Source: Planctomycetia bacterium (GTDB lineage: Bacteria > Planctomycetota > Planctomycetia > Pirellulales > JALHLM01). Taken from it: a stretch of 64,000 bases of DNA. Location of the stretch: assembly GCA_034440135.1 (NCBI GenBank), contig JAWXBP010000319.1:1-64000 (forward strand), given 5' to 3'. The notes beneath the pieces were generated by a model. The model was given only the letters and a program-made list of their open reading frames with translations. It made no database searches and was not told where the DNA came from. Shown here piece by piece: positions 43,459 to 45,719 of the stretch. Each line of letters opens with the position of its first letter. The first letter of the stretch is position 1. A program made the position numbers and the translations under genes.

Positions 43459-43989
43459 CTAGAAACTGGCTGTCGAAGCGGCAGAAGTCACCGTCGGTTC
43501 GGGACGCAGCGAAAATGTCGGGGCAGCGTTCCGCAGCGTTTCGACAGGTTCGCAGGAAAGCGGGAGGGGTTGCCGCAGATACTTTTTCCAGTGCTCGAGC
43601 CAGTCAAAAGCGCTCTCAATCGCCGCCACGAGGGCGGACGCATCCGGCCATGGTTTGACCACCAGACGATGTACGCCGTGCAGTCTGGCCAGCCCGGCCG
43701 CGGTCAGTCGCGCGGGATGCTCGCTATCCACCAGGGCAATCACGGGAACGCCAGCGTCATGCCGCGACAGTTCCTCCATGAATTTGGCAGCCTCGGGCTC
43801 TTCGACCTGGTCGATGACAAGCACGCACTCGCAGCGCCAGCTCGGAACTGAATCCTGGCAACGGCCCGCAGGCAGCGAGAATTGTTGCACTCGATACGAC
43901 GGCTCAGGAAAGGAGCGCAGCAGCGCATTCCAAGTTTCCTGATCGCGACCGATGTACTGTATGATTCTAGTGGCAGCGTCAAGACGCAT
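43459..43989 (-). CDS. Receiver-like protein without output domain
   Basis: A 176-residue protein with a CheY-like pattern: IIQYIGRDQETWNALLRSFP at the start, CVLVIDQVEEPEAAKFMEEL at the position of the phospho-acceptor strand, GVPVIALVDSEHPARLTAAG, and HRLVVKPWPDASALVAAIES (Lys-Pro). The acidic pocket at the first strand appears reduced. The C-terminal 40 residues are Pro/Thr/Ser-rich and probably disordered. It lies 20 bases upstream of the Glu-receiver regulator, so the two likely work together. Confidence 0.75.
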   Translation of the reverse strand: MRLDAATRIIQYIGRDQETWNALLRSFPEPSYRVQQFSLPAGRCQDSVPSWRCECVLVIDQVEEPEAAKFMEELSRHDAGVPVIALVDSEHPARLTAAGLARLHGVHRLVVKPWPDASALVAAIESAFDWLEHWKKYLRQPLPLSCEPVETLRNAAPTFSLRPEPTVTSAASTASF

Positions 43990-44351: not shown

Positions 44352-45719
44352 ATGAGCCAGCAAATCGCCTTGTTCGCCGGGAGCTTCAACCCGCCCGGAG
44401 CGCATCACCGTCGGATCGCCGCACGGCTGGCGGAAACATTCGACGAGGTCGTCGTGATTCCCTCGGGACCGCGCGCCGGCGAGCCCGTGGCGAACGACGT
44501 GCTGCCGATCTACCTGGCAGCGATGGCGGACGTCAATTTTCGCCACCTGGATCGGGTGCGCGTCGAGCTGTCGGATCTGGAAGCCGGACAGTTCACGCCG
44601 CTGTATCGCCTCGCCGAACAATTCGCTCCAGCGGCGGAGGCCTGGATTGTCGTGGGCGCCAACCTGATTGCGGGCGGCGCGGCGGGCCAATCAGTCATTC
44701 AGAATTCCTGGGAACACGGCGACCAGCTTTGGCGCGACGGCAGATTCGTGGTCGTCGCCGGTGGCGAACAGCCACTTTCGCCAGCCGATCTCCCGCCGCA
44801 CCATCGCGTCATCAACGCCGAAGAAATCCGCTCGAGCACCGCCGTCCGTAGCCATTTGTTCAACAGCCGCCCCGTGGCGGATCTCTTGCTGCCCGAAGTG
44901 GCGGACTACATTGCCCGACATGGGCTTTACCGCGGCGTCCCGCCCACGCGACGCTCGCGATTGCATGTGCAAGGCACGCGGCTCAAGGTCGTCAGCGATC
45001 CGCGCAATGAAGAAGCCCAGCGCATCGCGCAGAGCTTTCCGGATTCCCACGACGATCCGGAATTAATTGTCGTCATTGGCGGGGACGGTACGATGCTGCG
45101 GGCGATCCGCGAGCACTGGCGGCTGCGCGTGCCTTTCTATGGCATCAACGCGGGGCACTTGGGATTCCTGCTCAACGACGTGCCCGCCGCCTCGCTGGCG
45201 GACGAAGAGTTCCTGTTGGAGCATGTCCCTTTGCTGCGCGTCGAGATGGAAATGAAGGATGGTACTCGGGAATCCGCGTTGGCCTTCAACGACGTCTGGG
45301 TCGAACGTGCGACAGGTCAAACCGCCTGGATTGAAGTGCGCGTGAACGGCGAACAGCGCTTGGCGCGCCTCGTGGCCGACGGTGCGCTCGTGGCCACAGC
45401 CGCCGGCAGCACTTCGTACGCCCGTGCGATGGGCGCCACGCCGCTGCCGCTCGGCACATCGGCTCTGCTACTGGTGGGCTCGAACGTGTTGTCGCCGGAC
45501 GGTTGGCGGCCCGTGGTGTTGCCGCTGGAATCGGTGATCGAACTGCGCTCCGTCGATCCGGAAAAACGCCCGCTCCACGGCTTCGTCGACGGCTACGCCC
45601 ACGGTCTGGTGCGCTGGATGAGCGCCCGCATGAGCAACATCGCCGCCGCGGAACTGGCGTTCTCACCAGGCCACGATCCGGTGGCGAAACTGAGCAAGAT
45701 TCAATTCCCGGCACGTTAA
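44352..45719 (+). CDS. NadD-NAD kinase fusion protein
   Basis: A 455-residue protein joining two enzymes of the NAD(P) pathway. Residues 1-195 resemble NadD (nicotinate-nucleotide adenylyltransferase): LFAGSFNPPGAHHRRIAARL, VVGANLIAGG, and the C-terminal SST motif AEEIRSSTAVRSHLFNSRPV. The usual GxFxPxHxGH loop is altered, with Gly16 in place of the first His and His19 kept, so activity is uncertain. Residues about 200-455 are NAD kinase (PpnK): VVIGGDGTMLRA (GGDGT 243-247), INAGHLGFLLND, AFNDVWVERATGQ and ADGALVATAAGSTSYARAMG. The enzyme would complete NAD synthesis and convert NAD to NADP. ATG at 44352. Confidence 0.88.
   Translation: MSQQIALFAGSFNPPGAHHRRIAARLAETFDEVVVIPSGPRAGEPVANDVLPIYLAAMADVNFRHLDRVRVELSDLEAGQFTPLYRLAEQFAPAAEAWIVVGANLIAGGAAGQSVIQNSWEHGDQLWRDGRFVVVAGGEQPLSPADLPPHHRVINAEEIRSSTAVRSHLFNSRPVADLLLPEVADYIARHGLYRGVPPTRRSRLHVQGTRLKVVSDPRNEEAQRIAQSFPDSHDDPELIVVIGGDGTMLRAIREHWRLRVPFYGINAGHLGFLLNDVPAASLADEEFLLEHVPLLRVEMEMKDGTRESALAFNDVWVERATGQTAWIEVRVNGEQRLARLVADGALVATAAGSTSYARAMGATPLPLGTSALLLVGSNVLSPDGWRPVVLPLESVIELRSVDPEKRPLHGFVDGYAHGLVRWMSARMSNIAAAELAFSPGHDPVAKLSKIQFPAR

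Follow-up and report, generated by a model that had tools for sequence, protein, structure and literature searches.

NAD kinase, as a rule a protein of its own, sets the NADP pool. Among the enzymes of NAD synthesis, an excerpt of PMC9503650 describes two fusions, NadR (adenylyltransferase plus P-loop kinase) and NadM (adenylyltransferase plus Nudix). The protein described here resembles them in that an adenylyltransferase of the NAD pathway is joined to a second NAD-pathway enzyme. However, NadR and NadM, as that excerpt presents them, belong to other adenylyltransferase families, have other partners and lack NAD kinase. In the bifunctional NADP phosphatase/NAD kinase (NF010678, PRK14076), NAD kinase shares one chain with another enzyme, but the partner is a phosphatase, and our protein matches this profile only at residues 233-362, in the kinase part, with 37.1 bits of 493. 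No NadD-NadK fusion was found in the open-access literature that we searched, a scope outside which most subscription papers lie; an excerpt of PMC9803151 lists nadD and nadK among the genes found in two genomes of Berkiella and makes no mention of a fusion there.

The window analysed here is a 64,000-nucleotide stretch of DNA from a Planctomycetia bacterium (assembly G000). It contains an intact open reading frame on the plus strand (44352..45719, stop included), which starts with ATG, has no internal stop and encodes 455 amino acids; all features of this gene given below lie on the same strand. The original prediction was that NadD and NAD kinase are combined in this one protein, and the reading frame, the domain profiles and eight further genomes support it. 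The motifs that it named (GSFNPPGAHH; IRSST, at residues 159-163; GGDGT; and the DGALVATAAGSTSY region, at residues 343-356 in the NAD kinase part) were all found at the residues given for them. The NadD-type nucleotidyltransferase domain covers residues 1 to about 197 (44352..44942), as delimited by TIGR00482 and by a nine-sequence profile compared with 1kam. TIGR00482 matches residues 7-193 over its complete length (1-194 of 194) with 40.5 bits, below the curated cut-off of 112.45, and the nine fusions score 41.5-70.8 bits in genome searches, all under that cut-off. A cytidylyltransferase-like Pfam match at residues 7-43 is also sub-threshold (18.6; cut-off 21). When a profile was built from the nine N-terminal halves, solved NadDs ranked first (1kam, 7.7e-14) and the best of them were matched over their whole length; human NMN adenylyltransferase followed from 1.8e-4 and phosphopantetheine adenylyltransferases from 3.6e-4. 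Because solved NadDs outrank these enzymes, assignment of the N-terminal half to another nucleotidyltransferase family, which would have refuted the original prediction, was rejected. By its sequence, this half can be placed with NadD (nicotinate mononucleotide adenylyltransferase) as a divergent member.

The NAD kinase domain covers residues about 208-455 (44973..45716), on the evidence of PF01513, NF003406 and a C-terminal profile. PF01513 (NAD_kinase) matches residues 208-274 with 42.1 bits (cut-off 25.5). The best NCBIfam match is to a short NAD kinase (NF003406, PRK04761), a kind that includes the alphaproteobacterial kinases of the tree described below; residues 225-452 align with positions 25-255 of 257. 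The fusion shares with this kinase the same side of the kinase tree; it differs in scoring below the curated cut-off (147 bits; cut-off 211), in being fused and in forming its own clade. Pfam matches to PF20143 (NAD_kinase_C; 18.5, cut-off 23.7) and, over the kinase part, to diacylglycerol kinase (19.3, cut-off 23.6) are sub-threshold. A profile built from the C-terminal halves of the nine fusions retrieves solved NAD kinases, the best at 8.2e-18. GGDGT lies at residues 243-247 (45078..45092), and its GGDG (G243-G246) is present in all nine fusions. N313-D314 (45288..45293), which we take to be the NE/D motif of NAD kinases, is Asn-Asp in eight fusions and Thr-Asp in G137. We read the C-terminal half as a functional NAD kinase. 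An AlphaFold2 model of the fusion made from three rows was poor (mean pLDDT 51.2, pTM 0.36).

The original prediction also held that the two enzymes make NAD and then NADP. This is not correct: the product of NadD is nicotinate adenine dinucleotide (NaAD), so NadE must act in between. In other words, the steps catalysed by the two halves do not follow directly on one another, because NAD kinase does not use the NadD product. A match to PF02540 (NAD_synthase, for NadE) over the cut-off was found in all nine carrier genomes, including that of the window.

For the active site, E. coli NadD was aligned against the nine fusions. In E. coli the T/HxGH motif is residues 16-19 (excerpt of PMC1249556), and therefore the numbering of the window protein coincides with that of E. 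coli NadD. The loop of the window protein, GSFNPPGAHH (residues 10-19, 44379..44408), ends in G16, A17, H18 and H19. It had been noticed correctly that the first His is replaced by Gly16 and that His19 is kept; that Gly18 is also replaced, by His, had been missed. The column of E. coli His16 contains Gly in eight fusions and Ala in one, never His or Thr, and that of Gly18 contains His in 9/9; His19 is kept in all. Because Gly or Ala at 16 and His at 18 occur in nine of nine, the altered loop is the norm of this family. In the same loop, the Thr11 column is Ser in eight and Thr in one, and the Asp13 column is Asn in eight and Ser in one. The substrate loop departs from PPH(K/R) in every fusion. 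In the window protein this region is PSGPRAGEP (residues 37-45, 44460..44486), where E44 aligns with E. coli Arg46. The Arg46 column is Lys in six fusions, Gln in one and Glu in G000 and its genus mate G001; the His45 column is Asp in six, Glu in one and Gly in the same two genomes. At VGAN (residues 101-104, 44652..44663), N104 aligns with E. coli Asp109, a column that is Asp in seven fusions and Asn in G000 and G001 only. Arg41 (aligned with E. coli Pro43), His18, His19, Trp120 and Arg166 are invariant in the nine; Trp120, before helix E, presumably corresponds to E. coli residue 117. The Ser-Ser of the SST end is kept in eight fusions and lost in G046, and the Arg of SSTxxR is kept throughout. 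Thus, the window fusion shares with NadD (TIGR00482; 1kam) a whole-length profile match, the second His of T/HxGH, the aligned Trp and the SSTxxR Arg, but differs in His16 to Gly, Gly18 to His, RAGE in place of PPH(K/R), an insert of eight columns before Trp120 and the attached NAD kinase. According to an excerpt of PMC1249556, the residual activities of E. coli NadD mutants are 0.62% (H19A), 0.038% (D109A), 4% (H45A), 2% (T11A), 23% (N40A) and 80% (S110A), and R46A is singled out as the most strongly affected mutant. The losses at positions 46 and 109 make efficient catalysis by the NadD half unlikely in the window's genus. Arg41, being invariant, could however stand in for Arg46, so the NadD half of the window protein may be active.

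Full-length fusions were found in nine genomes: G000, G001, G011, G046, G137, G225, G442, G692 and G625. The other eight proteins are 48-96% identical to that of the window. Four of 57 relatives carry the fusion (G000, G001, G011 and G046). In two larger surveys, in which four candidates were scored per listed genome and the counts are lower bounds, the window's phylum gave at least three carriers among 392 sampled genomes (G000, G137, G225), and the phylum of G442 at least three among 377 (G442, G692, G625); in another ten genomes of the latter sample only the kinase part was matched. In the class of G225 it is present in one of 29 genomes, the genus mate G112 being without it, and in the order of G692 in 3/26, all within the nine. 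We infer that the fusion is present in more than one phylum. In a kinase tree of 42 rows, the kinase domains of all nine fusions cluster as a single clade (100/99) inside a group (100/100) that contains ten single kinases of the phylum of G442, three alphaproteobacterial kinases and one from a phage. This tree has a long E. coli branch and does not place the nearest neighbour of the fusion clade within the group. The group is separate (100/100) from 18 canonical planctomycete kinases (17 of the 26 loci L005-L030 plus L060; L059 was left out). Genes resembling dapF (diaminopimelate epimerase), named by eye, adjoin short single NAD kinases at L070, L071, L074 and L079. In a NadD tree of 23 rows, the NadD domains of the nine fusions likewise group together in one clade, to the exclusion of 14 separate NadDs (100/100). 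On these trees the fusion has a single origin. One fusion event followed by transfer between lineages is the simplest reading, in which horizontal transfer and its direction are presumed. A mobile or phage origin was rejected on the following searches. By tblastn, the window protein had matches in 26 of 50,697 phage records and in 72 of 72,556 plasmid records, but no match spanned 80% or more of its length; the matches listed (20 phage and 20 plasmid) all start no earlier than query residue 167 and so leave out most of the NadD half. Of 52 candidate stretches that came from scanning viral contigs with a profile, none was confirmed.

We then consider the other NAD genes of the carriers. The fusion is the only PF01513 match in G000, G001, G442 and G692. 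In G011, G137 and G625 it is accompanied by one weak match (22.7 bits, below the cut-off, 29.2 and 26.3 bits, respectively), which may be a lipid kinase; G046 and G225 keep a strong canonical NAD kinase besides the fusion. Thus, the fusion is now the sole NAD kinase found in several lineages. Because all 57 relatives give a PF01513 match over the cut-off, a canonical kinase would be seen if it were assembled. It should be mentioned that the genomes are mostly fragmented drafts, with completeness put at 96% and contamination at 4.9% for G000 and completeness at 83% for G001, so that a kinase may have been overlooked. The fusion is very probably the only NAD kinase of the window organism. Because NAD kinase is essential in bacteria, the kinase half must work if the assembly is complete here. 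A separate NadD over the TIGR00482 cut-off was found in eight of the nine carriers. That of the window's genome, on contig C420, is canonical (169.9 bits), which answers the question of a separate intact NadD raised with the original prediction. The separate NadDs of G442 and G692 exceed it by a small margin (115 and 113.2 bits, neighbours being included in the frame). These two genes (L085, 1483-2052, and L086, 1468-2052, both minus strand) have the loop GSFNPPHVAH, with Ala for the loop Gly. In G625, the fusion is the only NadD-type (TIGR00482) match. The gene that neighbours nadD in its order mates G442 and G692 is also without a match in G625, and therefore the assembly may simply lack the nadD stretch; for this reason we no longer take G625 to prove that the NadD half is active.

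The gene neighbourhoods differ among the carriers. In the window, six of eight neighbouring reading frames scanned have a Pfam match (a protein kinase, argininosuccinate synthase, a response regulator and three flagellar hook genes), and no NAD family was found among the eight. The neighbours on the G001 contig are the same by eye. A 176-residue protein of the window (43459-43989, minus strand), beside a LuxR-type response regulator, has no Pfam match at 0.001 and looks receiver-like by eye. In G011, the fusion is the last gene of a tight one-strand operon, pncB - nrtR - pncA - fusion, with spacings of 6 bp, a 4-bp overlap and 11 bp. Here pncB encodes nicotinate phosphoribosyltransferase (TIGR01513, 511 bits; cut-off 297) and pncA nicotinamidase (236 bits; cut-off 174); the NrtR-type regulator matches the winged helix (81.9; cut-off 27) but reaches only 171 against 400 for NF050029. 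NrtR is a sensor of ADP-ribose according to an excerpt of PMC9503650. Because the G011 operon makes nicotinate mononucleotide (NaMN), this compound was most likely the substrate of the ancestral NadD half. In G046, a compact cluster on contig 68 (L050, 1-5840, minus strand) comprises an NrtR winged-helix end, nicotinamidase (PncA), KptA, ADP-ribosylglycohydrolase, NADAR, microbial PARG, Nudix and the fusion, whose start overlaps the stop of the Nudix gene by 4 bp. The NADAR gene of this cluster also matches NF053876 (NADAR family anti-phage protein; 111 bits, cut-off 240), and the ADP-ribosylglycohydrolase (L050, 3384-4234, minus strand) is split over two overlapping frames (profile positions 3-147 and 158-286 of 287). 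In G225, the start of the fusion overlaps by 4 bp the stop of an adenosine deaminase-Nudix gene. The 891-residue product of this gene (L065, 9693-12368, minus strand) contains adenosine deaminase (231-474) and Nudix (741-877) domains, and about 266 residues between them have no Pfam match at 0.001. No NAD family was found among the two neighbours scanned in each of G442, G692 and G625, and the contig of G137 begins 288 bp upstream of the fusion, so that this locus cannot be judged. Accordingly, NAD or Nudix genes stand beside the fusion in three of nine loci, five have none among the neighbours examined and one (G137) is not judgeable.

Selection was measured on one genome pair, the window and G001. 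For this pair, dN/dS is 0.047 for the whole gene, 0.061 for the NadD half (dS 0.50), 0.037 for the kinase half and 0.061 for canonical NadD. These values show that the NadD half is kept by selection despite its changed residues. On the nine-row trees, the stem branch of the window's genus is 0.72 for the NadD half versus 0.44 for the kinase half. Otherwise invariant columns are broken in G000 and G001 in 5/51 cases in the NadD half versus 3/73 in the kinase half (Fisher p 0.27). In the NadD half of other lineages the same count is 2/48 to 6/52, with G625 at 6/52 versus 5/75 in its kinase half. Therefore, although the stem branch is longer, we rejected faster decay of the window's NadD half: the broken-column count is non-significant and within the range of other lineages.

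How the protein works may be read in several ways. The original prediction left a choice between a bifunctional enzyme and a NadD domain turned regulatory. The operon of the relative G011 favours a bifunctional enzyme for the family, and the changes of Arg46 to Glu and Asp109 to Asn favour, as far as sequence can tell, a weak or regulatory NadD half in the window's genus. We thus give about an even chance to the reading that the family is a NadD-NadK enzyme of NAD salvage, which spread between lineages, and that in the window's genus the NadD half is a poor catalyst kept for binding or control; both activities and the loss of adenylyltransfer are presumed in this reading. The rival that the window organism, too, has full activity in both halves, Arg41 replacing Arg46 in function and His18-His19 replacing T/HxGH, is tentative and somewhat improbable. 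In its favour, the five residues named above, among them the second His of the loop, are invariant, and the NadD half is as constrained as canonical NadD; the lone NadD-type match of G625 also speaks for it, but there the nadD stretch may just be missing from the assembly. Against it, Asn and Glu in the window's genus stand at positions where Ala ruins the E. coli enzyme.

A change of substrate would place the chemistry in one chain. If the NadD half had switched to nicotinamide mononucleotide (NMN), one protein would convert NMN to NAD and NAD to NADP and the NadE gap between the halves would be removed, and a substrate loop unlike PPH(K/R) in all nine is in line with this. However, the nicotinamidase and nicotinate phosphoribosyltransferase of the G011 operon make NaMN, not NMN, and every carrier has a NadE match, so we regard the switch as improbable. 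An assembly or gene-calling artefact that joined nadD and nadK was rejected as practically without chance, nothing having been found in its favour. The identical join recurs in nine assemblies without in-frame stops, and the canonical nadD of the window's genome is on another contig; the original prediction had treated the join as real, and it holds.

In the preferred reading, that of a salvage enzyme, the family would have arisen once. Nicotinamide would be converted to nicotinate by PncA, then to NaMN by PncB and to NaAD by the fused NadD half. NadE, encoded elsewhere, would form NAD, and the fused kinase half would form NADP. The fusion would then have spread to distant lineages and become the sole NAD kinase found in several of them. 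In the window's genus, where the fusion lies outside a salvage operon, the housekeeping step would be performed by the canonical NadD, and the NadD half, from which two additional catalytic side chains are gone, would most likely retain the binding of a pyridine (di)nucleotide or ATP and assist the kinase in binding, regulation or assembly. A more specific form of this idea, which we consider unlikely, is that the former adenylyltransferase is a built-in sensor of the sole NAD kinase: it would bind NaMN, NaAD or ATP without adenylylating and would set NADP formation according to NAD synthesis two steps upstream.

The fusion, an unusual pairing that is sparse in distant bacteria, may connect the salvage of NAD with the supply of NADP. 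Where the only NAD kinase is attached to a NadD-type domain, and in G011 also lies within an operon with pncB, nrtR and pncA, the coupling between NAD supply and the formation of NADP can be approached directly. Since nine genomes keep the altered T/HxGH loop, nature itself offers a test of what this loop is required to contain. Given the patchy spread and an ancestral kinase that was apparently replaced, the family would clearly exemplify the exchange of an essential gene for a foreign, fused one.
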